In this document: positions 16,904-37,903 of the stretch, one piece after another
Position numbering within the stretch: position 1 is the first letter of the stretch
Layout: each line of letters opens with the position of its first letter
From: Bacillota bacterium
GTDB taxonomy: Bacteria; Bacillota; UBA4882; UBA10575
DNA length: 37,903 nucleotides
Assembly (NCBI GenBank): GCA_012727425.1
Contig: JAAYHQ010000014.1
Coordinates: 1-37,903 of the forward strand
Reading direction: 5' to 3'
Notes under the pieces: model-generated
Databases searched by the model: none
What the model saw: the letters and a program-made list of their open reading frames with translations, nothing else
What the model was told of the DNA's origin: nothing
Made by a program: the position numbers and the translations under genes

Positions 16904-16982
16904 CCCGGCCGGCAAGGCGGCCTCACGTTGACCGGTCACAATTGGTACAAAATCCCCGGTCCGAAAGGGAAAGGAGGAAGCG

Positions 16983-20304: not shown

Positions 20305-20348
20305 CTTCTTTCCTCCTTCGGTCATTAACCGGTTTCTAAGTTTGGAAT

Positions 20349-20377
20349 ATTATATGAGATCAATCTTTTTGGAGGAA
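20349..20377 (-). promoter_or_regulatory. Possible promoter of the cgeB-like gene
   Basis: A perfect TATAAT on the minus strand (20349-20354) lies about 45 bases upstream of the ATG. The -35 region at 17-base spacing (TTCCTC) is poor, so the assignment rests on the -10 element. Confidence 0.4.
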
Positions 20378-20494
20378 CAATCCGTACCGCGAAAAGGCCC
20401 TTCTACCAGGCCGCAAAGATGCCTTGACCCCATCACCCCCAACACGCCCGGGTCGTACACTAAAGCAAGGAGGTACCAGAAAGGATGAGTCGGT

Positions 20495-21334
20495 TTGCGA
20501 TTTTCGATTATTATCAACTGTTACAACACCTTGCCCTTAATCAAAAAATGCCTCGAAGCAGCACTGGTCAGCACGGACCAGAACAGTGAACTAATCCTGA
20601 TCAACAACCATCCCCCTTATGCGGATGCTTTAGCCTTTCTGCGGGAGTACAAACACCCCCGGGTCCGCATCCTGGATCCAGGACGGAACATCGGTTGTAT
20701 GCCCGGATTCCAATACGGCGCCGAACACGCCCACGGTCAATACCTCGTCAAACTGGACGATGATGTATTAGTCCCGAATAAAAACTGGACCGCCGCGATG
20801 TGCCAAGCCTTAAAGGACTTCCCAAAGCTGGCCTATGTTGCGCTTCTGCCCGCCGCCCTCAAAGGAAGCCCCCGGCCACAGGTGAAAAAAAACGGTTACA
20901 CCCTGGAATTCCGGCGGAGTACCATACTGTTCTGGTGCATGATGATTAATAAACAGTTATGGCGAAAACATTTCTACTTAGCCGATCTTCCCCTCTATGG
21001 CGTCGGCGAACGGCATTATGAACGGAAAGCAAATCAGCTTGGTCTGAAGAAGGCCTACCTGACTTCCCATGTTTGCACCAGTTTGGGACGGACCGAAGAA
21101 GCGGATCCGCTTTATGGAGCCTGGAAACTCTTTTATGTCAAAAAAAAGGAAAGCCGGAGCGACTTTGAGACCTGGAAAAAAAGTTTCGTTCTCGGCCCGG
21201 GCGAAGCCGAAATCATGCGGCGGTTCGGCTACCCTGAGGACCAGATCGCCGCGGTGCGGGCCTTGCTTACCGCCACCCAACAAGCGGATCGAACCTGCTC
21301 CCCAACAGAAGGAGGGGCCGAGCATGTCCCTTAA
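20495..21334 (+). CDS. Glycosyltransferase family 2 (GT-A type, divergent)
   Basis: The 279-residue protein begins FSIIINCYNTLPLIKKCL and contains ILINNHPPYADALAFL, RNIGCMPGFQYGAEHAHGQYLVKLDDDVLVPN (DxD metal site LDDD) and ILFWCMMINKQLW. It is a GT-A fold enzyme of unknown donor. The only in-frame start is TTG 20495. The good AGGAGG site fits instead an ATG at 20485 that is one base out of frame. Either the TTG uses the weaker AAGGATG as its site, or one T in the TTT run at 20494-20496 is extra and the true start is ATG (MSRLRFSII). It overlaps the next gene by 11 bases. Confidence 0.8.
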   Translation: MRFSIIINCYNTLPLIKKCLEAALVSTDQNSELILINNHPPYADALAFLREYKHPRVRILDPGRNIGCMPGFQYGAEHAHGQYLVKLDDDVLVPNKNWTAAMCQALKDFPKLAYVALLPAALKGSPRPQVKKNGYTLEFRRSTILFWCMMINKQLWRKHFYLADLPLYGVGERHYERKANQLGLKKAYLTSHVCTSLGRTEEADPLYGAWKLFYVKKKESRSDFETWKKSFVLGPGEAEIMRRFGYPEDQIAAVRALLTATQQADRTCSPTEGGAEHVP

Positions 21335-22106
21335 GGACTTCCCCGATGAAAAACTCCTCTCCGAACTAGAAGTCCTGCACCGGATTCACCGCGCCCTCCG
21401 CCAAAAAAAACCTTTTTCCCTGGTCCGGATCGGGGACGGGGAAAATATCGTCCTTGCCCAGGGCACATTCCTCAGCAACAAAGAGCTGGAACAGACCTAT
21501 TGGGTGCGGGACAGCCGTACCGGTGGAAAAGGGGTTGACCTGCCCAACCTCACCCTCCGCGACCGGATGCTGAAGGGGATCAAAGCCGCCGACATCGTCG
21601 GGATCTGTCGTCAACAGAACGACGAAGTCTCCGCCCCGACCAAATTCAAGCGGGCCCTCACCAACAAAATCTTCGACCATTACAACCTGCAGCCCCGTGC
21701 CCTCTGCTATGTCTTCTGCAACCGCAAGATGGTCGCTTACCGCTACTTCTGGAAGATTATCCACCAATACCGCACCCTCCTCATCTCCAAGTGGGCCGCC
21801 GACTACGCCAAACGGATCACCAGCAAATACACGAATTTACCCCCCCGGATCGTGGGGACCATCAATTTTGAGCATTATGACCAAATTCCCGCGGTCCTGA
21901 AAAAAGCGGGTCAATACGAATTTGATCTGGCCTTAATCTCCGCCGGGGTCAACGCCGTCATTCTCGCTCCGGCCCTGGCCAAACGCTACAAGAAAGTAGC
22001 GATCGACTTTGGAAAGACCATGATGTACACGGTCCGGCCCAACAACCGCATTCGCCCTTGGGACCCCCAGCCTAAACCGGCCACCGAGGAACGGGAACAA
22101 GCTTGA
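21324..22106 (+). CDS. GT-D fold glycosyltransferase
   Basis: The 260-residue protein matches the GT-D fold (DUF1792-type) glycosyltransferases. It has SLVRIGDGENIVLAQG with the DxE metal motif, RMLKGIKAADIVGICRQ, RIVGTINFEHYDQI and a C-terminal FDLALISAGVNAVILAPALAKRYKKVAIDFGKT. Such enzymes extend O-linked glycans on serine-rich adhesins in streptococci; the reaction here is unknown. The start has GGAGGGG nine bases upstream and overlaps the preceding gene by 11 bases, so the two are co-translated. Confidence 0.8.
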   Translation: MSLKDFPDEKLLSELEVLHRIHRALRQKKPFSLVRIGDGENIVLAQGTFLSNKELEQTYWVRDSRTGGKGVDLPNLTLRDRMLKGIKAADIVGICRQQNDEVSAPTKFKRALTNKIFDHYNLQPRALCYVFCNRKMVAYRYFWKIIHQYRTLLISKWAADYAKRITSKYTNLPPRIVGTINFEHYDQIPAVLKKAGQYEFDLALISAGVNAVILAPALAKRYKKVAIDFGKTMMYTVRPNNRIRPWDPQPKPATEEREQA

Positions 22107-22187
22107 TCCGACCGGAGTTGATCTGACCGACCGGCGGCGAAAAGCCCGTCCCGCGCCCCCAACAGTCCCAGGCTAACCTGAAAGGGA

Positions 22188-22925
22188 ATGATGCGCATGG
22201 AGCACCATGTCGATCTGGTCCTGGTCACTTACACGAGCCGACTTTGCCTGCCCACGTTTTTTCAGTCCTTACGGCAAACGACCAAACCGCCTTTCCGTTT
22301 ATTGGTGATCGATAACAACAGTCAAGACCAGACCAAGGCCTATTTACAATCGAAGCTGCAAGATCCCTTTTTCCGTCACCACCTGCGGCTCGTCTTCAAC
22401 AAAAAGAACCTGGGGGTGGCGAAAGCCTGGAACCAAGCGGTCAAGCTGACCACCGGCCGGTTTATTGTCTTCTTAAACCCCGATCTGATTTTTACCAGGG
22501 ATTGGCTCCACAAGTTGACTCAAAGCGCCATGCGGCATAAACAGGCCATGGTCGTTGGGGCAAAAATCCTCAATCCCGACGGCACCATTTACCATGCGGG
22601 GGCCAACGGAAAAATCCGGGGTAAGGGAGAGAAAAACCGTCCGGGCCTCTGTGACCGGGAAAAGAAGGTCCGTTGGGTCCAAGGCAGTTGTTTTCTGGTC
22701 AAGCGCGCAATTTTTCACGAAATCGGGGGCTTCGACGAACGGTTTTTTATGTACGGTGAAGAAGTGGACTTTTGTTGGCGGGTGCGACAAGCCGGTTATG
22801 AAGTGCTTTATGCCCCCGTTCCCGTCTACCATTACCGGCAAGGGTCGAAAATCACCCGTAAGGAGCGGCTTAAACTCCGCCGGCACAGCGCCCGGTTGTT
22901 AAGGGCAAAATGGAAGAAAAAATAA
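22188..22925 (+). CDS. Glycosyltransferase family 2 (rhamnosyltransferase-like)
   Basis: The 245-residue GT-A protein shows VDLVLVTYTSRLCL, LLVIDNNSQDQT, NKKNLGVAKAWNQAV, FLNPDLIF at the metal site, VQGSCFLVKRAIFHEIGGFDERFFMYGEEVDFCWRVRQAG and a basic tail (RLLRAKWKKK). It resembles the WbbL branch. Three in-frame ATG codons (22188, 22191, 22197) follow AAAGGGA, the second and third at better spacing, so the start is uncertain by three residues. It is followed at once by a strong terminator, ending the first glycan transcript. Confidence 0.86.
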   Translation: MMRMEHHVDLVLVTYTSRLCLPTFFQSLRQTTKPPFRLLVIDNNSQDQTKAYLQSKLQDPFFRHHLRLVFNKKNLGVAKAWNQAVKLTTGRFIVFLNPDLIFTRDWLHKLTQSAMRHKQAMVVGAKILNPDGTIYHAGANGKIRGKGEKNRPGLCDREKKVRWVQGSCFLVKRAIFHEIGGFDERFFMYGEEVDFCWRVRQAGYEVLYAPVPVYHYRQGSKITRKERLKLRRHSARLLRAKWKKK

Positions 22926-22950
22926 ATTCCGCTCCCGCGGAATTGTTTTT
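22925..22950 (+). terminator. Intrinsic terminator after the GT2 gene
   Basis: AATTCCGC and GCGGAATT form a perfect 8-bp stem with a TCCC loop, followed by GTTTTTATAT. It begins at the stop codon of the GT2 gene and separates it from the UDP-glucose dehydrogenase gene. Confidence 0.88.
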
Positions 22951-23043
22951 ATATCCCATCCCCTTCCCGCCGCCAGCGAAATAAGATGAAGAAACAGAGC
23001 AGATTTTGGGATACAAAGACGATTCCAGCGGAGGAGATGAAGC

Positions 23044-24396
23044 GTGAAAATAACGGTGATTGGTTGCGGTTACGTCGGTCTGGTGACCGCCGCCGGTCTG
23101 GCGGAGACCGGCCACTGGGTAACCGGTGTTGACCGCGACCCCGTAAAGATAAATAAACTGCGCCGTCAAGAAGTCCCGTTCTACGAGAAAGATTTGGAAC
23201 CGCTCTTGCGCCGCCACGCCAAGACCGGGCGGCTGGCCTTTACCACCAGTCTAGCCCTGGGCGTCACCAATGCCCAGATTATTTTCATCGCGGTCGGCAC
23301 CCCGCCCTTAAGCGACGGGTCGGTTGATCTTAGCCAGATCGAAGCGGTTGCCGCCGAAATCGGTCCCCAACTTCATCGTTATACGGTGATCGTTAATAAA
23401 TCCACCGTTCCGGTGGGAACCACCCGCCGGCTCAAAACCATCATCGGGGAGCACACCCGCCACCCGGTACCTTTTGACGTGGTCAGTAACCCCGAATTTC
23501 TGCGGGAAGGAAATGCGGTCTCCGATTTTATGAATCCGGACCGCATTGTCATTGGCACCAATTCTCCGCGGGCCCGCAAAGTCATGGCCGAGCTTTACCG
23601 GCCCTTTCTGAAAAAAAGGGTCCCTTTGCTTCTGACCAACCCGGAGACCGCGGAACTGATTAAATATGCCTCCAATGCCTTCCTGGCCACCAAAATCTCG
23701 TTCATCAATGAACTGGCCGAGCTCTGTGAGGCCGTTGGGGCCGATCTGCCGATGGTGGCCCGTGGAATGGGCCTGGACCACCGGATCGGCCCCGAATTTC
23801 TCGCCGCCGGACCGGGTTATGGCGGCTCCTGTTTCCCGAAAGACACCAAAGCCTTGATTCACCTCGCCCGGACCCACGGTAAGCAAGTTTCCATCGTCGA
23901 AGCCACCGATGCGGTGAACACCCAAATCCAACAAAAGATGTTGGCCAAGATCACCCGCACCCTCGGCCCGCCCGCCGGAAAAACCATTGCCGTTCTCGGT
24001 CTAGCCTTCAAAGCCAATACGGATGATCTCAGGGCTTCACCGGCTTTGCCGATTATTGAAGGCCTCCTGCGCGCCGGTGCGCAGATCCGGGTCCACGACC
24101 CAAAAGCTTTAGACAACGGTAAAAAGGTCTTCGGCAACCGGATTACCTACTGCACGGATGAGTACACCGCCGCCCAAGACGCGTCGGCGGTGGTGATTGT
24201 TACCGAGTGGGAGCAATACCGCGCCCTTGACCTGGACTTGTTGAAAGCCAAAATGGCCCAAGCCATCATCATCGACCTCCGGAACCTTTTAACTCCGGAA
24301 CGGGTCCGCGCCCACGGCTTTCTTTACGAAGGGATCGGCCGCGGCAGTACGCAAGAGATGGGGGAAGCGCATGGGAAAATATCTGCTTTACAGTGA
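23044..24396 (+). CDS. ugd: UDP-glucose 6-dehydrogenase
   Basis: The 450-residue enzyme oxidises UDP-glucose to UDP-glucuronate with two NAD+. It has the NAD-binding ITVIGCGYVGLVTAAGLAETG (residues 3-23) and IFIAVGTPP. It also has NKSTVPVGTT, VSNPEFLREGNAV, LIKYASNAFLATKISFINELAEL (catalytic Lys and Asn), GYGGSCFPKDTKAL with the catalytic C263, and the C-terminal AVLGLAFKANTDDLRASPAL. The family could also act on UDP-ManNAc, but the motifs fit Ugd/TuaD better. GTG start with GGAGGAG eight bases upstream. It supplies uronic acid for the adjacent glycosyltransferases and overlaps the FkbM gene by 26 bases. Confidence 0.93.
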   Translation: MKITVIGCGYVGLVTAAGLAETGHWVTGVDRDPVKINKLRRQEVPFYEKDLEPLLRRHAKTGRLAFTTSLALGVTNAQIIFIAVGTPPLSDGSVDLSQIEAVAAEIGPQLHRYTVIVNKSTVPVGTTRRLKTIIGEHTRHPVPFDVVSNPEFLREGNAVSDFMNPDRIVIGTNSPRARKVMAELYRPFLKKRVPLLLTNPETAELIKYASNAFLATKISFINELAELCEAVGADLPMVARGMGLDHRIGPEFLAAGPGYGGSCFPKDTKALIHLARTHGKQVSIVEATDAVNTQIQQKMLAKITRTLGPPAGKTIAVLGLAFKANTDDLRASPALPIIEGLLRAGAQIRVHDPKALDNGKKVFGNRITYCTDEYTAAQDASAVVIVTEWEQYRALDLDLLKAKMAQAIIIDLRNLLTPERVRAHGFLYEGIGRGSTQEMGEAHGKISALQ

Positions 24397-25450
24397 GGAC
24401 CTGGCCGGCTTCGTCGCCTTAAACGTCCTCAAAGCAAAACAACACCAGATCGTGGGGGTGATCGATTGTTCCGGACGCCTGATCCAACAAGCTCTGGAGC
24501 AAGGGTTCGCCGTCTGTCAAAACATGGAGATCCTGCCCGCTGAAGCCCTGAACCAGGTAGACGGGATCATGATTGGCGTGGCGACCGAACCGTTGGCCAC
24601 CCAACTGAAAAAAGAGTTGAAGGCCAAGTTTCCCCAGAAAAAGGTCAACACCCTGCTGGATCCGGAATACCTGCCGGATTATCTGGCGGCGCGGCAGTCC
24701 GCCCTTGAGCAGCTGGTGAACGATGAAACCCAAGTCATGCCGGTCCAATACGGGAAAGGCGATGTCCTCATCTGTGCGGAAAACAAGGCCGAAGCGAAAC
24801 GGGCCCGGCATGTCCAGGAAGCAAAGGTCCTCGCCTTGATCCAGTCTTTAATCAAACCACAGATGGTCTTCTACGATATCGGCGCCAATATCGGCATCCA
24901 CAGTCTGATCCTGGCCCGGGAGCATCCTGATTGCCAGATCCATGCCTTTGAACCGGAAACTCTGAATTTCTGGAAACTACTCCGCAACATTACGCTGAAC
25001 AAACTGGAGAACATTACCCCCCATCTGATTGCGGCCGGAGCCAAACGGGAAGTGCGGTTCCTCTCCCTGCAGGGGTATCTTTCCGGCCTTGGCCGGCACT
25101 CGCTCCAAAAAACGGTAAGCAGTCTGACCACCCCCGTGGAAGTCTGGAACCTGGATTCCTATACCCGCCGGAAAAAGATCCCCCGTCCTGACCTGGTTAA
25201 AATCGATGTGGAAGGCTTCGAGTTACAAGTATTGAAAGGGATGAACCATATAATTAAAGCGAAAAGACCCAGCTTCATCATTGAAGTCCATGAAGCCCTG
25301 ACGGACCGGACCAAGGTCGAAAATTTTCTACAAAAACACCATTATAAACTAAAAGAGATCGCCCGCCAGCCCAAAAGGGGTTTCCTCTACGCCAAACCCG
25401 GCAAAAAAACGACCGCCCCAAACCAAGGCGCTGGGGGAAAAAAGAAGTAA
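24371..25450 (+). CDS. FkbM family methyltransferase with an N-terminal nucleotide-binding-like extension
   Basis: The 359-residue protein has a SAM-dependent FkbM domain from about residue 150: MVFYDIGANIGIHSLIL (motif I), IHAFEPET, VWNLDSYTRRKK, LVKIDVEGFELQVLKGM and SFIIEVHEAL. FkbM enzymes O-methylate sugars in surface polysaccharides and antibiotics. Residues 1-110 (KYLLYSEDLAGFVALNVLKAKQHQIVGVIDCSG ... DGIMIGVATEPL) look like a Rossmann-type sensor half seen in some surface-sugar enzymes, and are not usual for FkbM. ATG 24371 has GGGGGAAG upstream and overlaps ugd, so methylation of a uronate-containing glycan is a reasonable inference. It is the last gene of the region. Confidence 0.87.
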   Translation: MGKYLLYSEDLAGFVALNVLKAKQHQIVGVIDCSGRLIQQALEQGFAVCQNMEILPAEALNQVDGIMIGVATEPLATQLKKELKAKFPQKKVNTLLDPEYLPDYLAARQSALEQLVNDETQVMPVQYGKGDVLICAENKAEAKRARHVQEAKVLALIQSLIKPQMVFYDIGANIGIHSLILAREHPDCQIHAFEPETLNFWKLLRNITLNKLENITPHLIAAGAKREVRFLSLQGYLSGLGRHSLQKTVSSLTTPVEVWNLDSYTRRKKIPRPDLVKIDVEGFELQVLKGMNHIIKAKRPSFIIEVHEALTDRTKVENFLQKHHYKLKEIARQPKRGFLYAKPGKKTTAPNQGAGGKKK

Positions 25451-26071: not shown

Positions 26072-27706
26072 TTAAACCCCAGCCGGCAGCGAAAGGGCCA
26101 CCAGGGCGGCGATCAGGGTAAAAACCAGGCAGGGAACGAGGTTGCGCTTGATCAGCTCCCCTTCCGCCCCGTCAATGCCGACCGTGGCACAGACGGCGAC
26201 CACGCTATTGAAACAGATCATACTTCCAAAGGCCCCGCCCACCACTTGGAGGGCGACAATGCGCACCGGCAGGAGCCCCAGAAGCAGCGCCGTCTCGTAT
26301 TGAAACGAAGCAAACAGAATATTCGAGACCGTATTCGACCCGGACATAAAAGTCCCCAAAACTCCGATGAACGGGGCAAAAAGCAGAAAAGCATTCCCGG
26401 CCAAAGCGGCCATGGTGCGGGCCATGATCGTCATCATGCTGTCAAACCCGGCGGTATTCACCTGGGAATTCAACATGACCTGAACCATGGCCACCCCAAA
26501 AATTAAGGCCACCACCGCCCCGGAGATTTGCTGAAAGGTGTTCCGCCAAGCCCGCTTGGTTTGGGCTGGTGTCATCCCGTGCAAAAAAGGGGTGAGCAAA
26601 GCAACCAAGGTAAACGGGATAATTCCCGGCAAATAGGCCCAAGCCAGCTCATAATCCAAGCCGTTGATCCCCATGATCCGCGGAACCGTAAGCTTCATCG
26701 CAGACAACAGCTCCTTGAGCCCAAAAGCCGGGATCCGGGTCACCACCAGAATAGAGGCGATCAGCATATAAGGCAGCCAGGCCTTCCATAAAGACAACGT
26801 CGGCGCGGCCGGTTGCTGATCTTCCCGCACGAAATTGGCGCGCCAATCCGCCGCCCAGGCCCTGGGTGCCGGAAAATCCCACCGGGTTTTCGGCACTAAA
26901 AAGCCGGCTTTGGCCGCCCAGAGGAGAAAGGGCAGTCCCACCAGGCCGCCAATTAATGCTGGAAATTCCGGCCCCAGAAAAAGGGCCGTACAGTAATAGG
27001 GTACGACAAAGGCCAACCCGGCAAAGAGGGCAAAGGGCATGACGGCAAAGGCGTGTCGCAATGACTTATCTTCCCCAAACAGCACCACCAGAAAACAAAG
27101 GCCGAGCAAGGGAACGAAGAAGCCGACCGCGGTATGTAAAAAGGCCACCTCTTCGGTGAGGAGCAGGGTAAACCGCTCGGTGCCGCTTCCCAAATAAGCA
27201 GCCAGACTGTTCACGGCGCCAAAAATGGGCGTGCCAACCGCCCCGAACGAAACCGGGGTACTGTTGAGGACCAGCGCAATCATGGCCGCCGCCAACGGGG
27301 GAAAACCCAACCCCACCAGCAGGGGCGCCACTAAAGCCGGTGGCGTCCCAAACCCGGAGGCACCCTCAATAAAAGCGCTGAACATCCACCCGATAATCAG
27401 CGCCTGAATCCGGCGGTCACTGGTGATGTGCTGAAAACCATTGCTGATCCGCTGCATCGCCCCGGACTCTTTGAGCGTGTTCAAGATCAAAACCGCGCCA
27501 AAAATAATGATGATTACATCCAAAGCCTTAAAAGCCCCAAACAGCGAATACCCAAGCACATGGACGGGTTCCATCCGCCAGATGGTAAGCGCGACAAGGA
27601 CCACCAACCCCCAAGCCAGGGGCAGAACCCTTTTCGCGCTCCAGTTGAAGACGGCCATTAGCAAAACGGTGACCAAGATCGGCAAAAACGCAAACAAGGC
27701 GAGCAA
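26072..27706 (-). CDS. lctP: L-lactate permease (LctP family)
   Basis: The 544-residue protein is entirely hydrophobic, with about 12-14 membrane helices, and matches the LctP/LldP family of lactate (and glycolate) proton symporters. Family signatures are visible in [55 protein letters not shown] and [25 protein letters not shown]. The start is TTG 27706 with AAAGGGG eight bases upstream. No lactate dehydrogenase or lutABC gene is in the window. It follows the response-regulator gene by 125 bases and has its own likely promoter, so it may be a target of that regulator or a separate unit. Confidence 0.93.
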
Positions 27707-27806: not shown

Positions 27807-27835
27807 ATTTTAACACCGTTTGGGCCTCCTGTCAC
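27807..27835 (-). promoter_or_regulatory. Likely promoter of lctP
   Basis: GTGACA (27830-27835) and TAAAAT (27807-27812) on the minus strand are exactly 17 bases apart, each five of six to consensus. The -35 overlaps the stop codon of the response-regulator gene. The leader would be about 95 bases. Confidence 0.55.
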
Positions 27836-29433
27836 TTTTTCACTAAATTTTCCCGGTACTCGCTGGGGGTTTGGTTGGTAAGTTTCTTAAAACAACTGCT
27901 GAAATAGTAGGGATCATTGTAGCCGACGGCGGTGGCGATTTCATAAATGCGCATCTCCGTATGTTTCAATAATTCCTTGGCTTTCCGGATCCGGCACTCG
28001 GTCAGATAATCGGAGAAGTTCTTCCCGGTGCGTTCAGTAAAAAGCAGACTGAGGTATCCGGGACTGAGTTTATATTTCTCCGCCATTGCGGAGAGGGTGA
28101 TCTCCGCCGCGTAATTCGTTTCCAGGTAACGACGGATTTCATCAACCCGCTGCTGGTTAAGGCTTTCCCGACTCCGGCTGATCAAGTGGTTGATCCGGGC
28201 AAAGATTTTTTTAAATTCGGCTTCGAGTTCATCCAGGGACTGCGTCCGGCTGATCATATTTAACGGCGGAACGCCCTCTTCAAAGAGCTCTTCCAAATTG
28301 TAGCCTAATTCATTGAGGGTGGCACAGGTTAAAAGCAACAAATTGGCGGCGATAATCCGGATCGGTTCCGGACCTAGACAGGATGAACGCAACTCGGTAA
28401 ACAACTTCGTCAAGTCTTCCAGAATCTCATCGTTGGCCCCAACCCGTAAATCATCAAAAATCCGGTTCTGATAAAGTTGGTAAAAGATTTTATGGTAGTC
28501 CGGATGCGCCAGATGCAGATCGCCGACGGCATAAACCCGGTTTAAACCGTAGAGGAACCGGTTTTGCAGCGCCATCCCCGCTTCCCGGTGCGCAACGAAA
28601 AGATCCAATAGCGTCTGGTAACAATTGCTGACGCCGATGGTGATGTCTTTATTTAAATGCACCCGAAGCCTGTTTAACCATTCTTCCAAGCACAACGGGA
28701 GATCCCGGTCCGGATCAAAAATGACCGCAACCATTTGACGGTGGTAGTAATTGAGGAGCAAGAACTGGTATGCGGAGTTGGCAAGCTCCCGCTCAAGATA
28801 CTGGTAAAACTGGAGGTCCAATAAATACTTGTCCTCTTCCGGAACAAGCTCGTCAGAACTGTCGTGCAGTTCCAGCACGACCACTTGGAAGGGTCTGTTC
28901 TCATGCTGATCCAAACCCAAAAACTGTAATTTTGCCGCAAAGTCGGCTTTCCCCACTTTTCCGTTTAACAGATCGGTAAGAAACTTTTCTCTTAAAACCG
29001 ACATGTTATTGCTAATCTGCGCCCGCAGGGCGGCAAGCTCTTCTTCTTTCGCCTGTTCTTCACCGAGCTCTGCTTTCAGCCGCAGCGCCACTTCCAAGAG
29101 GCGGCGCGTGGCAAAGGGTTTTAAGAGGTATTCGGAGACCGCCAGGTTAATCGACTCCCGGGCATACTCAAATTCAGCAAACCCGGAAATGACAATGATC
29201 TTCATCCGGTAGTTCCGCTTCTTAATCTCCTTAATCAGTTCGATTCCGTTCATCACCGGCATCTGGATGTCGGTCACCACAATCTGGATCGGGTGCTGTT
29301 CCAGGAGGGATAAAGCTTCCTCCCCATTACTGGCCCCGAGAACCGGATCGAAACCATAATCACGCCACGGGACATTGTTCATCAATTTCCGCTTGATCGC
29401 TTCCTCGTCTTCAACCAGCAAGATTCCGCTCAT
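27832..29433 (-). CDS. Response regulator with AraC-type DNA-binding domain (YesN family)
   Basis: The 533-residue protein has a receiver domain at 1-120: acidic pair E8-D9 in LLVEDEEAIKRKLM, phosphoacceptor D55 in VVTDIQMPVMNG, Ser in VISGFAEFEYA, and Lys in LLKPFATRRLL. A middle region of about 300 residues typical of YesN follows. The C-terminal AraC domain has two HTH motifs (EITLSAMAEKYKLSPGYLSLLF; IYEIATAVGYNDPYYFSSCFKKLTNQTPSEYR). YesN regulators usually activate sugar-import or glycan-degradation genes. The start has AAAGGAGGT nine bases upstream. It is 28 bases after the histidine kinase gene, so it is almost certainly the partner. The target genes are not evident; lctP is the nearest candidate. 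Confidence 0.93.
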   Translation of the reverse strand: MSGILLVEDEEAIKRKLMNNVPWRDYGFDPVLGASNGEEALSLLEQHPIQIVVTDIQMPVMNGIELIKEIKKRNYRMKIIVISGFAEFEYARESINLAVSEYLLKPFATRRLLEVALRLKAELGEEQAKEEELAALRAQISNNMSVLREKFLTDLLNGKVGKADFAAKLQFLGLDQHENRPFQVVVLELHDSSDELVPEEDKYLLDLQFYQYLERELANSAYQFLLLNYYHRQMVAVIFDPDRDLPLCLEEWLNRLRVHLNKDITIGVSNCYQTLLDLFVAHREAGMALQNRFLYGLNRVYAVGDLHLAHPDYHKIFYQLYQNRIFDDLRVGANDEILEDLTKLFTELRSSCLGPEPIRIIAANLLLLTCATLNELGYNLEELFEEGVPPLNMISRTQSLDELEAEFKKIFARINHLISRSRESLNQQRVDEIRRYLETNYAAEITLSAMAEKYKLSPGYLSLLFTERTGKNFSDYLTECRIRKAKELLKHTEMRIYEIATAVGYNDPYYFSSCFKKLTNQTPSEYRENLVKK

Positions 29434-29461
29434 GGTCCTGACCTCCTTTGTACCCGTTCCC

Positions 29462-31240
29462 CTATTCGATCAGCGGTAAACGAAGAACGGCCTTCGTGCC
29501 CTGATTAAGGGTGGAAGTTAGCCACAACCCATATTCTTGACCAAAAGCAAGGACAATCCGTTCATGGACATTACGCAACCCGAAACCGTATCTCTCTTGT
29601 TCTTCCGCGCATTCCCCCCGTAAAGAACGGTTGATCGTCTCAACCATCTCCGCCGGCATCCCCCGGCCGTTATCAACCACTTCAAAACAGATCGTTTCCT
29701 CCGCCCGGTAACCCTTGATGACAATTAAACCATCATTACTTTCTGTGGAACGTACCCCATGGTAAATGGCGTTTTCAACCAAAGGCTGCAAGAGGAGTTT
29801 TAATGTTTTATAGTGGGTAATCCCGTCCTCAACCTCGAACCGGTAATCATACTTTTCGCCATGGCGCAATTTTTGGATATAAAGATAGTTCCGGACATGA
29901 TCCACTTCTTCCTTGATCCTGATTAACTCCCGGCCCTGACTCAAACTGATCCGGAAGAAGGCCCCCAGGGCTTCCACCATCTTAATCACATCTTCGTTCT
30001 GGTTTGTTTCCAGCAGACCAATGATTACCTCCAGCGTATTATAGATAAAATGGGGTTTGATCTGTTCCTGCAGCGCCCGCATCTCAATTTGGCGCAGTTT
30101 CTTTTGCTCCTGAACACTTTGGCGCATCAACTGCCGGATCTGGGAAAGCATCTGATTAAAGGCCTGCCCAAGCTGGCCAATTTCATCATAAGTGCGGACG
30201 GGCACAACCGTATTAAGGTTTTCCGCCGCCGCCTGCATTGAGGACTGCAGTTCTTTCAGCGGCTTCGTTAAAACCCCGGACAGCAAAAGGGCCACCAGGA
30301 TCACAGCAATAATGGAACCCGCAATCAAAGCAAAAGAGATCCGGGCGACCGTCGTCATCTCTGCAATCAATTCCGTCCGGTCGGAGATGCCGATAATGCT
30401 CCATTGCGTCATAGGCAAGGTTTTCCCCATAATCACCCGGTTTCCGTAGGTGTAATAACCGCTCCGCCAGGATTCGCCCACCGGATTGCCCAAAAGCAGA
30501 CCGACGGATTTACCGATCAATTCGGGCTGGGGATGAAAGATAATCTGCCCGTTTTGGTCAACCAGGGTCACATAGCCGGTTTTACCCAGCCGGATATCAC
30601 GGCAGATCCGCGCCAGGAGATCCAACTCCACATCAATAAGCATAATCCCTAAAAAATTATCATAATCGCCGTAGATGGCACACCCAACGGAAAAGACTTT
30701 TCCCCCCAGCCAATCGTCATGGGGCCCGTAGATCGCCATCGTATTATCCTGCGCCGTCCGGTTGGCCAGGATTTGGAAAAGTTCGTTCTGGGAAAGATCC
30801 ACATTGGTCAGGCCATAACAACCGATTTTGACCCCTTTTAAGGTTATGATGGCCACATCCCGCAGATCGGTTTTGTATTTTTTAATATTGTTTAAATTCT
30901 CCCATAAACGGTAGGTGTATTTCTGGTTGCCCTCAATGTCATCGATCATACTGAGTTTTAAAAATTGCAGGATGTAATAGTCGTTCCTTAGATCAAGAAT
31001 GCGTTCCAGATCACTGAGGTAGATCTGGAGGTTGCGTTCCACCCGGTTAATAACCGTCTCCGTATAAGTCCGGACGTTTTGCTGGAGAATCTCAAGGTAG
31101 GTGTAATAGGAGAGAAAAGCCAATAAGAGCAGGGGGATCAAGATCAAGCCCGTAAAGGAGATAATGAACTTGGTCCGGAGCGACTTAATCCGAAAAGTCT
31201 GGCCCAAAAACTTACCCGCTGCGGTCATGGCCTTCTTCAT
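29462..31240 (-). CDS. Sensor histidine kinase (YesM/LytS type, dCache-HAMP-HisKA)
   Basis: The 592-residue kinase starts at ATG 31240, which overlaps the stop of the upstream binding-protein gene (ATGA). A GTG 12 bases earlier lacks a ribosome site. Order: membrane helix 1 (about 26-46), extracytoplasmic dCache domain (about 50-290, with GYVTLVDQNGQIIFHPQPELIGK), membrane helix 2 (about 300-322), then HAMP (TKPLKELQSSMQ). The His_kinase box EQIKPHFIYNTLEVI has the phosphorylated His at about 397, followed by an HATPase_c domain with QPLVENAIYHG, VVDNGRGMP and FGLRNVHER. The translational coupling to a sugar-binding protein suggests that the binding protein contacts the sensor domain, as in XylFII-LytS of Clostridium beijerinckii. 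The ligand is not known. Confidence 0.93.
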   Translation of the reverse strand: MKKAMTAAGKFLGQTFRIKSLRTKFIISFTGLILIPLLLLAFLSYYTYLEILQQNVRTYTETVINRVERNLQIYLSDLERILDLRNDYYILQFLKLSMIDDIEGNQKYTYRLWENLNNIKKYKTDLRDVAIITLKGVKIGCYGLTNVDLSQNELFQILANRTAQDNTMAIYGPHDDWLGGKVFSVGCAIYGDYDNFLGIMLIDVELDLLARICRDIRLGKTGYVTLVDQNGQIIFHPQPELIGKSVGLLLGNPVGESWRSGYYTYGNRVIMGKTLPMTQWSIIGISDRTELIAEMTTVARISFALIAGSIIAVILVALLLSGVLTKPLKELQSSMQAAAENLNTVVPVRTYDEIGQLGQAFNQMLSQIRQLMRQSVQEQKKLRQIEMRALQEQIKPHFIYNTLEVIIGLLETNQNEDVIKMVEALGAFFRISLSQGRELIRIKEEVDHVRNYLYIQKLRHGEKYDYRFEVEDGITHYKTLKLLLQPLVENAIYHGVRSTESNDGLIVIKGYRAEETICFEVVDNGRGMPAEMVETINRSLRGECAEEQERYGFGLRNVHERIVLAFGQEYGLWLTSTLNQGTKAVLRLPLIE

Positions 31241-32241
31241 TTGATATCCCACGGCTTTTTGGTCTGGAGTAATTGGCTGAAGTTGCTCTCATCGGCCAAT
31301 TCTATACCGGTATCGATAAAAGCGGAGGGAATGGGGAGGTCCTTGATGGCACAGACCAGGTAACTGACGGTAAACTCGCCCATTTTCCGGTAGTCCGGCC
31401 CCACCAGAGCCTGGGCGAAACCGCGCAGCGCCGCTTGTAACACCGGGTAGGAGGTATCCATCGCCACGGTAATCCCCCCGTTCTGGCACCATTGGTCATA
31501 AACAGGCATCGCTTCCGGCGGCCCAAGAAAAGCCCACCCCCCGGTGAAGAAGAAAGCGTCGGTCTCCGGGTGCTTTTTGAGGTAAGCCTCCACCTCCTTT
31601 GCGGCTGTGGTCGTATCCTCACCGCAGACCAGCAGGGTGCGATAGTTAAGTTTGATCCGGCCGGCCGTCGCCGCTTTAAAACCCCGGATCCTTTCGTTCA
31701 GATCATGGGCCTTCGTGCTGCCGGTCAGGATCACCGTGTTCAACTCCCGGTCCGCCCAACCTTTCGCGGTTACAATCCGGACCATGGCTTTTCCGCATTC
31801 CACCCCGGCGGCGTAATTATCGGTCCCGCAGTAAAACAAACGGTTGCTCTCCGGGGCATCGGCCTCCATCGTCGCCACTTTAATCCCGGCGGCCACCGCC
31901 TTGTCGATCACCGGCCGAAGCCGCTCGGCGTCGCTGCAACTGACCGCAATTCCATCGACCTTTCGCCGGATCAACCCTTCAACGATTTTAATCTGGGTCT
32001 CCACATCGACCTTAAAGGGGCCAATCCATTCCAATTTTACATTGAGCCGCCGTGCCGTTAACTCGGCTGCTTCTTTCGCCTCAATTAGCATGGGGTTGTC
32101 CAGGGATTTCGGGACAATTGAAATGGTGATCGGACGGGTCCGGACCGACGAACCCACGCGCCAAGCATTACCCGGGGGGAAACTGAGGACGAAAACCAGA
32201 AGGAGGAGGATTAACCCTTTTTTAAGCTTGAAGCGAGGCAC
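31237..32241 (-). CDS. Periplasmic sugar-binding protein (RbsB/LacI fold), likely co-sensor of the kinase
   Basis: The 334-residue protein has a signal peptide (FKLKKGLILLLLVFVLSFPPGNA) and a type I periplasmic binding fold: ITISIVPKSLDNPMLIEAKEAAELTARRL, IVEGLIRRKVDGIAVSCSDAE, GIKVATMEADAPESNRLFYCGTDNYAAGVECGKAM, NTVILTGSTKAHDLNERIRGF and TDAFFFTGG. There is no lipobox Cys. GTG 32241 has AAGGGAG seven bases upstream and is preferred; an ATG at 32271 after GGAGAG is the alternative and would give a longer n-region. It overlaps the histidine kinase gene by four bases, and no ABC permease or ATPase is nearby. It probably presents a sugar to the kinase. The exact sugar is unknown. Confidence 0.85.
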   Translation of the reverse strand: MPRFKLKKGLILLLLVFVLSFPPGNAWRVGSSVRTRPITISIVPKSLDNPMLIEAKEAAELTARRLNVKLEWIGPFKVDVETQIKIVEGLIRRKVDGIAVSCSDAERLRPVIDKAVAAGIKVATMEADAPESNRLFYCGTDNYAAGVECGKAMVRIVTAKGWADRELNTVILTGSTKAHDLNERIRGFKAATAGRIKLNYRTLLVCGEDTTTAAKEVEAYLKKHPETDAFFFTGGWAFLGPPEAMPVYDQWCQNGGITVAMDTSYPVLQAALRGFAQALVGPDYRKMGEFTVSYLVCAIKDLPIPSAFIDTGIELADESNFSQLLQTKKPWDIK

Positions 32242-32337
32242 GCGACCACTCCCTTGTTCGACATTTACCATGAACCGTTCTCTCCACGAAGGCAACGCAA
32301 AAGGCCTGTTCCGGACGTGTAGTGGAAGTCTGGCCGG

Positions 32338-33486
32338 TTAGTCGAGATGTTTATTAATGATGGAACTAACATAGAGTGAGCCGAGGACGGCAATCACGGC
32401 GCAGACCAGACCTAAAAACAAAGTAGTGACCCCAAACTTCCGGACATCCGCGTATAAATAGGCCGTCGGGGCCAGGCTCAAAAGGTGCCACCCGCTTTTG
32501 CCCCCGATCCCCACTTTACTCCCGATGGTCTTAAAAGTCACCAGGGTTTGGCGGCCATTCACCTCGGTAATGAAACTCCCCTGGTTAATCTCGCTCCCGT
32601 AATCCCGGTCGGAGACGAAAGTGAAGATCTCATCCAAAGGTTTTGTTTCTTTAATGATGCTGGAAAAGTTTTTCCCAATATCCTCTTTAAACGGGGTGGA
32701 AACGATCTCCCCCTCATTGTTGATGACCATCGAATAACTCTCAATCTCGGCCAAGGAAATGTAGAGCCGGTTATAGATATTTAAGTTGATCAGTTGGTCA
32801 ATCTTTTCTTCATCCACAATAATCGCCAATACGCCCAGGGACTCCCCGCTGGCCATATCTTTGATCTGCCGGCCCAGGAGCACGAAATGACTCCGGTTTA
32901 TTTTGATCGCCGACGACCAAACAATGCCCCCGCCGGCGGCGCATATATTACGGTAACCGTTATGTGCTTTAAAATTCTGAATTAGTTGGATAAAATCATC
33001 ATAATAATCCTTGGTAATGACCACCGACCGTTCGAGATCAGGATCACAAATAAACATGAAACCGAAGATATCCGGGTTACTAATCATATATTCCTTAAAA
33101 GAGGACTCCACTTCCCTTTTGGCCAGGAGAAACTGGTTTTCATCCTGGGCCCCGGCCAAGAGAGCCAAATTGCTGTTAAAACCTTTATTGATGAAAAGGC
33201 GCACAGAAGTATTTTCAAACTCCGCCAACTTCGACTGGATGTTGGCCACGGTCTGTCCCAACTCGGCTTGGGAGTACTGCTTTATTTTCTTCATAATCGC
33301 CGCTCGTGAACTGTTATACGCCAAAAACCCGATGAGCATGACCGGCGTCAGGGAAACCAACAAAAAGCAACAGATCAGCCGGTTGCGAATCAACCCTTTG
33401 GCCGCCTTGCCCTTTGGGGGCTCAACCTGGCTCTCTTCATTGGGGTGTGGCGTGTCACTTTGCAAATCCAAGACCACTCTGGCCAT
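32338..33486 (-). CDS. Tail-less dCache sensor protein (two membrane helices, no output domain)
   Basis: The 382-residue protein starts at ATG 33486 (AGGAGG eight bases upstream). It has an N-terminal cytoplasmic stretch, membrane helix 1 (LICCFLLVSLTPVMLIGFLAY), an extracytoplasmic dCache domain and membrane helix 2 (FLGLVCAVIAVLGSLYVSSI). It then stops after INKHLD, where the HAMP domain should begin. Over its length it parallels the chemoreceptor encoded at 34584-36758: NSSRAAIMKKI against TSSRAAITRKI, ISNPDIFGFMFI against ISNPDIFGFVFI, GGKSGWHLLSLAPTAYLYADVRK against GGQNGWHLLCFTRTSYLYAESRA. No HAMP or signalling remnant follows in the 96 bases before the next gene. It may act as an accessory ligand reader forming mixed dimers. 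Confidence 0.82.
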   Translation of the reverse strand: MARVVLDLQSDTPHPNEESQVEPPKGKAAKGLIRNRLICCFLLVSLTPVMLIGFLAYNSSRAAIMKKIKQYSQAELGQTVANIQSKLAEFENTSVRLFINKGFNSNLALLAGAQDENQFLLAKREVESSFKEYMISNPDIFGFMFICDPDLERSVVITKDYYDDFIQLIQNFKAHNGYRNICAAGGGIVWSSAIKINRSHFVLLGRQIKDMASGESLGVLAIIVDEEKIDQLINLNIYNRLYISLAEIESYSMVINNEGEIVSTPFKEDIGKNFSSIIKETKPLDEIFTFVSDRDYGSEINQGSFITEVNGRQTLVTFKTIGSKVGIGGKSGWHLLSLAPTAYLYADVRKFGVTTLFLGLVCAVIAVLGSLYVSSIINKHLD

Positions 33487-33614
33487 TTCTGTTCCTCCTG
33501 ATCTCATCAAGCGTTCTACTGCTAAATGTGTTATAAGCCGCACCGGCTCCGAACAGGTCCCGCTTTCAACCGGGCGGAAAACCCATGCCGGTTGCCGAGC
33601 ATAACTTGCCCGGT

Positions 33615-34571
33615 TCAATACCGGCGGGTCGGCAGCACATCCCTGGCCACCTCTTGGGGGAAGACGCCCTCCTCCACAATAATGCGTTTGGGTATCGGTT
33701 CGCCGGCCATGATGGCTTCCACCGCGTCAAAGAACTGCCGTCCCAACAAGGGATTACACTCGACCGTACAGTTGAGCTTACCTTCAATCATGGCTTCAAA
33801 AGCGGCGCGGATCGCATCGACGGAAACAATGATGATGTCCACACCGGGCCGGAGGCCGTAAGCCTCGATTGCTTGGATCGCCCCAATCGCCATATCATCA
33901 TTATGAGAAAACAGGGCGTCGATCCGGTCCCCTTCGGCCTTCAGAAATTCTTCCATCACTTCCTTACCCTTGGACCGCGTAAAGTCACCGTTCTTTGACC
34001 GGATAATCTTCATCCCGGGATAATTGGCAATCACTTCTTCAAACCCCTTTTTCCGGTCGATTGTCGGCGCCGAGCCAATGGTCCCTTGCAATTCAACAAT
34101 ATTCGCCTTGCCGTTCATCTTCTCCGCCAGCCAGCGCGCCGCCCGGCGGCCTTCCTCCACGAAATCGGAGCCGATCAAAGTCACCCAGAGGGAATCATCT
34201 GCACAATCAACCCCCCGGTCGGTCAGGATAACGGGGATGTTTGCCTGCTTCGCCTCCCGCAGCACTTCCTCCCAACCGGTGGTGACAACCGGTGAAAACC
34301 CAATCACATCGACCTTGCGTTCGATAAAAGACCGGAGCGCCTTGATCTGGTTGGCTTGCTGTTGTTGACAATCGACAAAGATCAATTCGATCCCGCGTTT
34401 CTTTGCTTCGGAGATAATTGATTCGGTATTGGCGATCCGCCAAGCACTTTCTGCGCCCACCTGGGCAAAGCCGACCACGATCTTTTTTTGCCCAGCCTCT
34501 ACGGAACTGCCGAGAACCAACGCTAAAGCCAACGCCCCCCAGAGCAAGCCGACTGCTGTTCGCCTGAGCAT
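33615..34571 (-). CDS. YtfQ-like sugar-binding protein (galactofuranose-type family)
   Basis: The 318-residue protein has a signal peptide (LLWGALALALVLGSSVEAG) and matches Escherichia coli YtfQ through most of its length from memory of that family. The segments are VVGFAQVGAESAWRIANTESI, ELIFVDCQQQQANQIKALRSF, VVTTGWEEVLREAKQANIPVIL, NIVELQGTIGSAPTIDRKKGF, IIRSKNGDFTRSKGKEVME and ALFSHNDDMAIGAIQAI. YtfQ delivers galactofuranose to the YtfRT-YjfF importer; no such importer gene is here. It follows the chemoreceptor gene by 12 bases, behind TAGGGAGGG, so it may serve chemotaxis or sensing. The true ligand is unproven. Confidence 0.88.
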   Translation of the reverse strand: MLRRTAVGLLWGALALALVLGSSVEAGQKKIVVGFAQVGAESAWRIANTESIISEAKKRGIELIFVDCQQQQANQIKALRSFIERKVDVIGFSPVVTTGWEEVLREAKQANIPVILTDRGVDCADDSLWVTLIGSDFVEEGRRAARWLAEKMNGKANIVELQGTIGSAPTIDRKKGFEEVIANYPGMKIIRSKNGDFTRSKGKEVMEEFLKAEGDRIDALFSHNDDMAIGAIQAIEAYGLRPGVDIIIVSVDAIRAAFEAMIEGKLNCTVECNPLLGRQFFDAVEAIMAGEPIPKRIIVEEGVFPQEVARDVLPTRRY

Positions 34572-34583
34572 TTTGTTCCCTCC

Positions 34584-36758
34584 CTACGAAACATTTGCTT
34601 CCGTTTCCGGATCAACCTGAAACCGTTCAATCATCTGAACCAGATTCTCGGCCATCCCTCGCAAAGCGGCCGCAAGACTCTTGACCTGGTCGGCAATGGC
34701 GGTCTGTTCTTCCGTCGCGGCGGAGACCTCCTCCGCTGCGGCGGCTGTCTGTTCCAGGATGGTACTGATCACTTCAATGGATTGGGTTGTTTCTTCCTTG
34801 GCCCGGTCAACCTCGTCGATGATCGCCGCCATCTCCATCATGCGCCCGGTTGTTTCATCCATGGCCGTGATGATCCGCGTAAAGGATTCCTGGGCTCCGG
34901 CCACCGACGCCATTTGTTTGGCCATAATCGTATATCCCCGCTCGATGGTGGTCGTCGACAGCACAATCTTTTCCAGGATGCTTTTCACAATCGTATTAAT
35001 CGTGTTGGCGCCATCCCGTGACTGACTCGCCAGCTTGTTCATTTCTTCGGCCACGACGGCAAAACCCTTCCCCATTTCCCCGGCCCGCGCAGCTTCGATC
35101 GACGCGTTCAACGCCAAAAGGTTGGATTGTTCCGCCAGATTGCCAATGACTTCCGTAATCCGGCTGATCTCGTCAATACTGGCCCGGAGGTCATTAATAA
35201 CCTCAAGCATCACCGTAGTTATTTCTTCCGTTTCTTTGGCATTAGTCATTAATGCACTGACCGTTTCTTGGGAATTGTAACTTAGTTCCCTGGTTGAACT
35301 GGATATTTCCCCGACTTCATCCGCTTTTTCATGGACTTTTTCAATCTGGACGGCCAATTGACGCATTCGGCCACTGGAATTCTCCGCTTCTTTGGTCTGC
35401 TCCGCCGTCCCTGTACTGACCTCCGCCATAATCCGGGCAATACTCTCCGCGGCCCGCGCCGATTCCTGCGAGCTTTCTTCCAACACAAAACTGTGCTCTA
35501 AAATACTTTTCACGGCAACCTGGGTTTCGGTGATCAGCTTCCCAATATTCACAATCATCCGGTTGAAACTCATCCCCAACACACCCAATTCATCCCCGGT
35601 GTTGACCCGGACCCGCACCGATAAATCGCCGTTTTCCGCCTTCGCCATTGCTTCCATTACTTCATTTAGAGGGTTTGAGATCCCGAAGGCGACGGTAAGC
35701 GAGATCGCAACGGCGAACAAAGCAAAGAAGCCGGCCATAAATAAAGTAGTGAGACCAACAGCGCGCGATTCGGCATAAAGATAGGAAGTCCGGGTGAAAC
35801 ACAAGAGATGCCAACCGTTTTGGCCGCCCAGCCCGCTTTCATAACTGATGGTCTTAAAAGTAATTAGGCTCTTTTTACCATCGACCCTCCCGATGTAACT
35901 GCCTTGGTTTTGTTCACTGCCGTTCGCACGGGCGGCACCCGGACCCGACAGTATTGGTTGTAAAGGTCCAGTCTTGGCCAAAAGGGCCGAAATCTGCTCC
36001 CCAATATAATCCTTCTGCGGAGAAGAAACGATCTTCCCTTCGTGATCGATGATCACTGAATATTTATTCAGGCCGGCGGCGCTTTCCCGGCCAGTATAGT
36101 AATGGGGGTTGATAATCCGCTCAATCTTTTCTTCCGCCGCCAAAATCAATAAAATCCCCAAGGGACTGCGGGTGACTTCATCCTGGATACTGCGCCCCAA
36201 ATACAAAAAGGGGGTGTTTTCCACCTTAAGTAAAGACCAACTTACATCACCCCCCGCCTGAATAATCTGGCGATAAGTTTCCGTCGTCCGCAGTTCCATA
36301 CTTATTTGTTTCAATTCCGGCCCATAATCTTGGGCATAGACCAACGGTTCACGGTCGGCAACTGCACTGATAAAGACAAAGCCAAAGATATCCGGGTTGC
36401 TAATAAGGTAGTTATTAAAGAAGCGGAAGACGATGTGCCGTTCGCCCTGGGCGATGGCGGAAGGCAGATTGTTGTAATTCCAGATCGCCTGATGGAACTG
36501 GGGGTCGATCAGAAGTTGAACCGATACCTTTTCAAATTCATCAAGTTTAAGCCGGACGTGGGCCGCCGTTTGGTTAAGTTCATCCAGAGTTGACTGGGTG
36601 ATCTTCCTGGTTATCGCCGCTCTTGAACTGGTATAGGACATCAAGCCAACAATAAAAACCGGAACAAGCGAAAGAAAGATAAAGGAGTAGATCAAACGGT
36701 CACGAATTGATGTCTTGCCAATGAACCCCATCACTTTCTTCTTGACATCGCCGAACAT
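34584..36758 (-). CDS. Methyl-accepting chemotaxis protein (dCache sensor)
   Basis: The 724-residue chemoreceptor has membrane helix 1 (LIYSFIFLSLVPVFIVGLM), an extracytoplasmic dCache domain of about 290 residues and membrane helix 2 (LFMAGFFALFAVAISLTVAFG). HAMP follows (ISNPLNEVMEAMAKAENGDLSVRV), then a long coiled coil with the conserved signalling tip (NLAEQSNLLALNASIEAAR, AGEMGKGFAVVAEEMNKLA). Glutamate/glutamine-rich stretches (EEVSAATEEQTAIADQ) are candidate methylation sites. It would report ligand to CheA/CheW. The start at 36758 has AGGGAGG six bases upstream; ATG codons 18 and 54 bases earlier lack good sites. It heads the sensory operon and has a tail-less paralogue two genes downstream. 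Confidence 0.93.
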   Translation of the reverse strand: MFGDVKKKVMGFIGKTSIRDRLIYSFIFLSLVPVFIVGLMSYTSSRAAITRKITQSTLDELNQTAAHVRLKLDEFEKVSVQLLIDPQFHQAIWNYNNLPSAIAQGERHIVFRFFNNYLISNPDIFGFVFISAVADREPLVYAQDYGPELKQISMELRTTETYRQIIQAGGDVSWSLLKVENTPFLYLGRSIQDEVTRSPLGILLILAAEEKIERIINPHYYTGRESAAGLNKYSVIIDHEGKIVSSPQKDYIGEQISALLAKTGPLQPILSGPGAARANGSEQNQGSYIGRVDGKKSLITFKTISYESGLGGQNGWHLLCFTRTSYLYAESRAVGLTTLFMAGFFALFAVAISLTVAFGISNPLNEVMEAMAKAENGDLSVRVRVNTGDELGVLGMSFNRMIVNIGKLITETQVAVKSILEHSFVLEESSQESARAAESIARIMAEVSTGTAEQTKEAENSSGRMRQLAVQIEKVHEKADEVGEISSSTRELSYNSQETVSALMTNAKETEEITTVMLEVINDLRASIDEISRITEVIGNLAEQSNLLALNASIEAARAGEMGKGFAVVAEEMNKLASQSRDGANTINTIVKSILEKIVLSTTTIERGYTIMAKQMASVAGAQESFTRIITAMDETTGRMMEMAAIIDEVDRAKEETTQSIEVISTILEQTAAAAEEVSAATEEQTAIADQVKSLAAALRGMAENLVQMIERFQVDPETEANVS

Positions 36759-37131
36759 AGCCACCCTCCCTGCCATCTTTTCAGCAACAACGCTTTGTTT
36801 TTTGGATTTCAAAAGATATGTAATCTATTATTTAAGTTAGGTCTTCGCCAAAAAACCGGCCGATCCTTCACTTTCCAGCCAAACAGACAGGTTAGGCTGT
36901 ATGTTTACCTTCTGTTAACCCAATATTCACTGATATTTATATTATATAAAACCTGGTACCTGCATTGGAATGGAGTTGTTTTTATTATCCTTTGATATTT
37001 TTAGCGTTCCTTGTTTAATTTTCTGTTGCAAAAAAGGTCTTCACTGTGTGCATAAAGAATAAGGGATGGCATAAGTATACAAGAATAACAGATATTTACC
37101 CCATAAAATATCCGTAAAGGAGAGATCGGAA
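36759..37131. other. AT-rich divergent intergenic region
   Basis: These 373 bases separate the chemoreceptor gene and the right-hand barrel gene. The sequence is markedly more AT-rich than its neighbours (for example 36940-36960). It holds several weak promoter-like elements for the plus strand, such as TTAACC-17-TATATT around 36916-36944 and TTGATA-17-TTAATT around 36991-37019, but no clear gene, repeat or terminator. Confidence 0.5.
36822..36851 (-). promoter_or_regulatory. Possible promoter of the chemoreceptor-led operon
   Basis: On the minus strand TTGGCG (36846-36851) and TAGATT (36822-36827) are 18 bases apart, about 65 bases before the ATG. No sigma-D-like motility element was found. 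Confidence 0.35.
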
Positions 37132-37903
37132 ATGCCCAAAAAAACCGGCGTTTTGCTGGTGATCATGCTCGCCCTTGCCCTGTTGTTTTCGTTAAACAGC
37201 ACTGCAGCCGGCGCGGTTAAACCGGCCAACGAATTCCGCAGTTCTTTCTGGTACACCCCGGAAGGTTCGCGCTTTCACTTCGACGGGTTACTCTTTCCCT
37301 TCAACGTCGACCTCTCCGCCAATACCGGTCTCCTCTGCGGCCTGGAATTTGGTTTTGGCTGGTACAACATCCTTGCTTACTACTACCACAACAACCTGCT
37401 TCAACCCCAGGACCAACTGGCCGTTGGCTTACTGCCGCTGACCTGGTCGGCCGGAACGTCGGTTACCTTGGCAAAGAGCCTGGCCCAACAGAGCTTTGGT
37501 GAGTACGTCAATGGCTCGATGTCTGATTCTTCCTTCGACTACCTGCCGTGCGGCGTTGGCCTCAAATACTCGGTTCCGCTTGGTCCGGCAACGCTCGCCG
37601 CATCTGTGACCAATAATCTGAAGGGAGATTGGGACATTGACATTGACAAACCCCTGGATGTAACCGCCCGTCTGGCGTTCCAGGCCGGAAAGAACATCAC
37701 CGTCGGGGCCGGGATCGCCTCCAGCAATACCTTCTCCGACGCCAGTAACTTTGGTTTTTTGGTGGATCTGGCCTATACCACCGGCCGCATGGGTTTACTC
37801 GGCGAGTTTGTCAGTTGGAACCGGGCCGGTACCGATGCCACCGCGTCCGGTCTTTACCTCGAGGGTTTTTATGATTTTACCGATCAGTCCCAGGTTTATG
37901 CCG
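37132..37903 (+). CDS. Secreted, probable outer-membrane beta-barrel protein (partial, N-terminal part)
   Basis: The reading frame is open from ATG 37132 to the right edge (257 codons), with AGGAGAG seven bases upstream. Residues 1-25 are a Sec signal peptide (VLLVIMLALALLFSLNSTAAG). The mature part has alternating aromatic and polar residues with Gly turns typical of beta-barrel strands: FHFDGLLFPFNVDLSANTGLLCGLEFGFGWYNI, LPCGVGLKYSVPLGPATLAASVTNN, VTARLAFQAGKNITVGAGIASS, NFGFLVDLAYTTGRMGLLGEFVSWN and GLYLEGFYDF. The short loops and even strand spacing resemble porin-like barrels. The domain family and function cannot be named. Together with the barrel gene at 1720 it argues for an outer membrane. 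Confidence 0.7.
   Translation, partial: MPKKTGVLLVIMLALALLFSLNSTAAGAVKPANEFRSSFWYTPEGSRFHFDGLLFPFNVDLSANTGLLCGLEFGFGWYNILAYYYHNNLLQPQDQLAVGLLPLTWSAGTSVTLAKSLAQQSFGEYVNGSMSDSSFDYLPCGVGLKYSVPLGPATLAASVTNNLKGDWDIDIDKPLDVTARLAFQAGKNITVGAGIASSNTFSDASNFGFLVDLAYTTGRMGLLGEFVSWNRAGTDATASGLYLEGFYDFTDQSQVYA

Follow-up and report, generated by a model that had tools for sequence, protein, structure and literature searches.

A six-gene run for putative sugar sensing in a Bacillota bacterium: a conserved output-less double-Cache protein and a probable promoter link to a distant transporter operon

Gene content of the locus

The window analysed here, a stretch of 37,903 nucleotides, is the entire contig C56 of the 2.18-Mb draft genome G000, and its flanks beyond the contig are invisible. 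It contains six consecutive genes on the minus strand. The first (34584-36758) encodes a methyl-accepting chemoreceptor with an N-terminal dCache-like sensor domain, a HAMP domain and an MCP signalling domain (MCPsignal, Pfam); the genome also carries chemotaxis genes, with CheW-domain proteins that include CheA-sized ones. It is followed by SBP1 (33615-34571), a probable furanose-sugar binding protein of the GafA/YtfQ type (Peripla_BP_4, NCBIfam YtfQ) that lacks transporter genes of its own, and by a tail-less double-Cache membrane protein (32338-33486) consisting of a first membrane helix (TM1), a dCache domain and a second helix (TM2), with the stop ahead of any HAMP or output domain. The next three genes encode SBP2 (31237-32241), a cluster-B sugar-binding protein of the sensing type (Peripla_BP_4 and phmmer), a YesM-type sensor histidine kinase (29462-31240) with dCache, HAMP, His_kinase and HATPase_c domains (Pfam), and a YesN-type response regulator (27832-29433) with a receiver, a GGDEF-like linker (GGDEF_2) and an AraC-type HTH domain (Pfam). 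The preliminary description of this DNA had given the same genes, coordinates and intergenic gaps (12, 128, 96, -4 and 28 bases), and the Pfam domains were those expected from it. The gap of 96 bases assumes that SBP2 starts at the GTG at 32241, the start being 32271 with an upstream ATG, and the kinase gene overlaps SBP2 by 4 bases.

The kinase is intact: its His_kinase and HATPase_c domains both score above the Pfam cut-off and it carries the invariant EQIKPHFIYNTL segment. As in three-component sugar sensors, the gene for a sugar-binding protein adjoins those for a YesM-type kinase with a dCache domain and for a regulator of the AraC type. SBP2 was matched by phmmer to 6gq0, to 6sw4 ('Arabinose binding protein') and to XylFII (5xsj). 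The best NCBIfam model for SBP1 was YtfQ, at 364 bits and under the curated cut-off of 510, and phmmer aligned it to the solved structures 6hbd, 5ocp and 2vk2 with E values of 1e-98 to 9e-87. These alignments keep the sugar-pocket segments QVGxESxWR, DR, IDRKxGF and NDDM, at the level of segments and not of individual contacts mapped on a structure. Omp85 was found in the genome, so soluble periplasmic binding proteins are to be expected. In the window itself, a DUF5723 protein is encoded at 1644-2969 and a barrel-like protein with no match at 37132-37903; together with the Omp85 matches they suggest an outer membrane.

Elsewhere in the window, an L-lactate permease gene (26072-27706) lies after the regulator on the same strand, and one is also found downstream in G005 (locus L041, 1622-3274). 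Positions 15656-25450 hold a run of glycosyltransferase-like genes together with genes for an FkbM methyltransferase and a UDP-sugar dehydrogenase-like protein. An Rfam scan of the window returned tRNAs only, and a promoter and terminator scan of it returned little beyond chance expectation.

Gene order in relatives and a shared promoter box

No permease or ATPase gene lies within the six-gene run, which thus lacks the ATPase and two permeases of a GafABCD operon. A search for the same gene order in related genomes found the run conserved: within the genus (G000, G001, G002 and G004-G007) SBP1, the tail-less gene, SBP2, the kinase and the regulator follow one another in this order, the contig of G004 stopping inside SBP2. 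Apparent gene breaks in the G001 locus proved to be runs of N, and SBP2, kinase and regulator are all present there. The arrangement differs beyond the genus, in members of other genera and of another family, where the tail-less gene is linked to a Gaf-type (furanose-sugar) ABC transporter. In five of them (G003, G008, G020, G021 and G022), a binding protein gene is followed by YtfR, YtfT, YjfF, the tail-less gene, SBP2, kinase and regulator. The leading binding protein is SBP1 in G021, where araA closes the run, and in the other four it is SBP1b, a protein ~33% identical to SBP1. G024 has, after YjfF and directly ahead of the tail-less gene, a second GafA-like binding protein, and the G009 contig begins within YtfR. 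NCBIfam matches served to name the open reading frames of G024 and G022, and BLAST against these to name those of the other genomes. At two of the loci (L049, 13716-15331, and L050, 12987-14605, from G008 and G003) two open frames, one receiver-sized and one output-sized, stand in place of a single YesN regulator gene, with the break at about residue 150; these loci are 93-99% alike in protein despite their different genera, which may reflect transfer or mis-binning.

The window genome has its own SBP1b-YtfR-YtfT-YjfF operon on another contig, C78, between a YifB-like gene and argS. Since the transporter lies in the operon of relatives and at C78 in G000, the lack of it in the window run is a derived state. 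The most plausible reading of the run is a three-component sugar sensor (SBP2, YesM-type kinase and YesN-type regulator) parted from its transporter by rearrangement. The claim of the preliminary description that the array has no transporter therefore stands for the window run alone: the relatives carry Gaf ABC genes in the same operon, the very finding that it had named beforehand as counting against its reading, and G000 keeps such an operon under the same promoter box, as described below. Its other proposal, a unit of binding protein, YesM-type kinase and YesN-type regulator of the XylFII-LytS-YesN kind, was borne out, the regulator orthologues coming after the kinase in relatives as well.

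A conserved 36-base promoter box with the core SATAATMAAARANNYTCYATT (36968..37003, minus strand) lies 210-245 bases upstream of the chemoreceptor start, with a TATAAT-like sequence ~20 bases downstream of it. This block is common to the promoters of SBP1b operons. A weight matrix was built from eight SBP1b-operon promoters, none taken from G000, and applied to 159,530 positions (~80 kb) of G000: the C78 promoter scored 40.9 bits and the window operon promoter 27.6 bits, the next best position reaching 8.3. With a seven-site matrix the window promoter scored 30.2, a value reached by 0 of 20,000 first-order Markov regions (maximum 19.95). An IUPAC pattern, written when the window site was already known, found 4 sites at two mismatches or fewer in the whole 2.18-Mb genome, the best two being the C78 and window promoters; its reversed control found none in the whole genome at the same threshold. 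Across 29 genomes the pattern has 7 perfect matches, each located ahead of an SBP1b gene at a distance of 144-201 bases; these sites had contributed to the definition of the pattern. The box also precedes the sensing operon in G002, G004 and G006 (2 mismatches) and in G007 (by the matrix), as well as SBP1 of G028 (2 mismatches), and was not found before the G005 chemoreceptor or the G001 SBP1. Judging from these promoter sequences, the window operon and the C78 transporter operon are probably one regulon. The conserved run and the box in common with a sugar transporter operon favour the earlier suggestion that expression and movement are jointly controlled.

The tail-less protein and the chemoreceptor

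The sole domain matched in the tail-less protein is dCache_1 (E 2.5e-9, short of the curated cut-off), and a membrane helix lies at each end. Of the 29 class genomes analysed, 15 encode it, in open frames of ~360-400 residues apart from the choice of start. In 13 of 13 orthologues compared it stops within ~15 residues of TM2. The protein ends at the point where HAMP starts in the chemoreceptor. A receptor paralogue ending there could be a truncated, decaying chemoreceptor relic, and the preliminary description had called it a receptor fragment. Against this, its length is similar in two families, its frame is open throughout, and its dN/dS in pairwise comparison with G000 is 0.086 (G002), 0.068 (G007) and 0.100 (G005), compared with 0.09-0.12 for the kinase and 0.22-0.24 for the chemoreceptor sensor domain. 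The tail-less gene is under purifying selection, with constraint as strong as that on the kinase. Frameshift or decay was rejected on the conserved length and the dN/dS range of 0.07-0.10, and a relic appears to us exceedingly improbable; the protein is a conserved family, not a broken gene.

Outside the class, a sample of 399 genomes of the phylum gave weak matches only (22-26% identical, in open frames of 464-717 residues). Two loci encode distant relatives of the sensor domain (L054, 8156-9535, and L055, 8469-9887), the first with a C-terminus of the LuxR type (GerE) and with ABC transporter genes of the phosphonate/polyamine type nearby. Among the titles and abstracts that literature searches listed, none concerned output-less dCache proteins, a result that is not proof of absence. 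An initial structure model, from 8 sequences, was poor, with a pLDDT of 52.8. The model from 12 sequences, chemoreceptor domains included, reached a pLDDT of 79.6 and a pTM of 0.69 and matched dCache chemoreceptor domains (PctA, E 9e-12).

The sensor domains of the tail-less protein and the chemoreceptor are paralogues, 41% identical over ~350 residues, a relationship that the preliminary description did not mention. In the sensor-domain tree the chemoreceptors of the window, G021 and G028 grouped together and separately from the tail-less clades, with a support of 90/89 that is not decisive, so chemoreceptor and tail-less protein are old paralogues and not a recent duplication. The chemoreceptor gene stands before SBP1 in G000, G002, G004 and G005, with a gap of exactly 12 bases in all four species. 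The loci of G006 and G007 have none; the G001 contig starts too near the locus for its presence to be judged. The pairing of chemoreceptor and binding protein proposed earlier thus held, and the chemoreceptor belongs to the array in those four species without being intrinsic to it: it is a variable addition to the operon.

An alternative is that the locus is an ordinary arabinose sensor of the AraPST or XylFII-LytS-YesN kind, with the tail-less protein a minor subunit of the kinase complex (a partner of the kinase sensor domain or an aid to SBP2 docking) and the chemoreceptor a mere neighbour without shared function. SBP2 and the kinase are indeed the most constant neighbours of the tail-less gene, which is followed by SBP2, kinase and regulator at every locus where the contig continues. 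However, the genome search that paired the tail-less sensor domain with that of the chemoreceptor did not bring the window kinase to the E 1e-5 threshold, and the fixed gap before SBP1, like a chemoreceptor sensor-domain relative located after the gaf permeases in G028, argues against chance neighbourhood. We consider this alternative rather unlikely. G010 has the whole module without the tail-less gene, so the tail-less protein is dispensable. Its tree and that of SBP2, kinase and regulator showed no significant conflict (AU p 0.40), and its apparent tracking of SBP1 type is thus no proof of pairing. Co-evolution with SBP1 type, at which pairwise identities had hinted, was weakened as both trees share the same split and the tail-less protein evolved faster throughout the second type.

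Ligand, proposed mechanism and known systems

The ligand is most likely a furanose sugar, L-arabinose or a close relative, to judge from related systems. The GafA family binds L-arabinofuranose and D-galactofuranose, and gaf genes are often linked to araBAD (PMC10191376); SBP1 shares sequence segments with GafA proteins that bind L-arabinofuranose. Both araA and araB adjoin the locus in G008, G020 and G022; in G021 araB diverges and araA follows the regulator, and in G010 araA diverges beside the locus. A copy of araA with one internal TAG stop lies beside araB and SBP1b in G002 (L173, contig C228). In the window genome, which is 95.7% complete, araA and araB (arabinose isomerase and ribulokinase) were not found, so the ligand there may differ, and araA is absent from G005. 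The array of the window species might accordingly sense another sugar, after ligand drift or loss of the arabinose pathway. This seems to us improbable, as SBP1 keeps the GafA segments, the C78 transporter and the box are retained, and a draft genome may miss genes.

The explanation that we regard as probable is a furanose-sugar sensing module that drives its own operon and the transporter, with a chemoreceptor and a docking protein attached. In this model, SBP2 would capture the sugar in the periplasm and then dock on the dCache domain of the kinase, which would phosphorylate the YesN regulator. The regulator would bind the box near the -35 region and activate both the sensing operon and the Gaf-type transporter operon on the other contig. 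SBP1, presumably derived from a transporter binding protein, would serve the chemoreceptor, such that the same sugar steers swimming. The tail-less protein would descend from a receptor by loss of the HAMP and output domains and would persist as a membrane docking site for sugar-loaded binding protein, a role that is our leading guess and a tentative one. Docking there could tune how much binding protein reaches the transporter, the chemoreceptor or the kinase. More doubtful, though conceivable, is a role as a fourth component of sugar-sensing systems, in which the tail-less dCache protein, as an output-less membrane receptor, would capture loaded binding protein and split it among transport, gene control and chemotaxis. 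The output-less receptor family is now defined and its role directly testable. What sets the locus apart is this conserved receptor together with the acquired chemoreceptor, both seemingly linked to one sugar. More broadly, a sensor tied to a sugar transporter can become separated from it, apparently remain in its regulon by means of a common promoter box, and acquire a chemoreceptor for what is probably the same sugar.

Among known systems, AraPST of Geobacillus stearothermophilus (a sensing binding protein, kinase and regulator) lies beside AraEGH, a system reportedly described by Shulami in 2011 (cited in PMC10384115). The system described here is of that kind, joining a sensing binding protein, kinase and regulator to an ABC transporter, probably for arabinose, and a second binding protein, except that the window genus has its transporter at a distant locus. 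We know of no tail-less dCache protein or chemoreceptor in AraPST/AraEGH. XylFII-LytS-YesN of Clostridium beijerinckii (PDB 5xsj/5xss), reportedly described by Sun in 2015 (cited in PMC10384115), likewise dedicates a sensing binding protein to a kinase and a regulator of the AraC type. The homology of SBP2 to XylFII is remote (E 2e-16) and at family level only, and the system described here differs in its extra components and in the sugar that we infer. In CuaDSR of Ruminiclostridium cellulolyticum, two binding proteins also divide sensing and uptake and a YesN-type regulator controls the transporter operon; its sugar is cellobiose, and the part of the account considered here describes no chemoreceptor or tail-less protein (PMC10384115). 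The transporters of the relatives, and probably SBP1, belong to the family of the GafABCD and YtfQRT-YjfF furanose transporters (PMC10191376), but in the window genus SBP1 adjoins a chemoreceptor, without transporter genes. The binding protein-kinase-regulator sensor described here is thus a variant, in which the transporter has split off, an output-less receptor is conserved and a chemoreceptor has been added in part of the genus.
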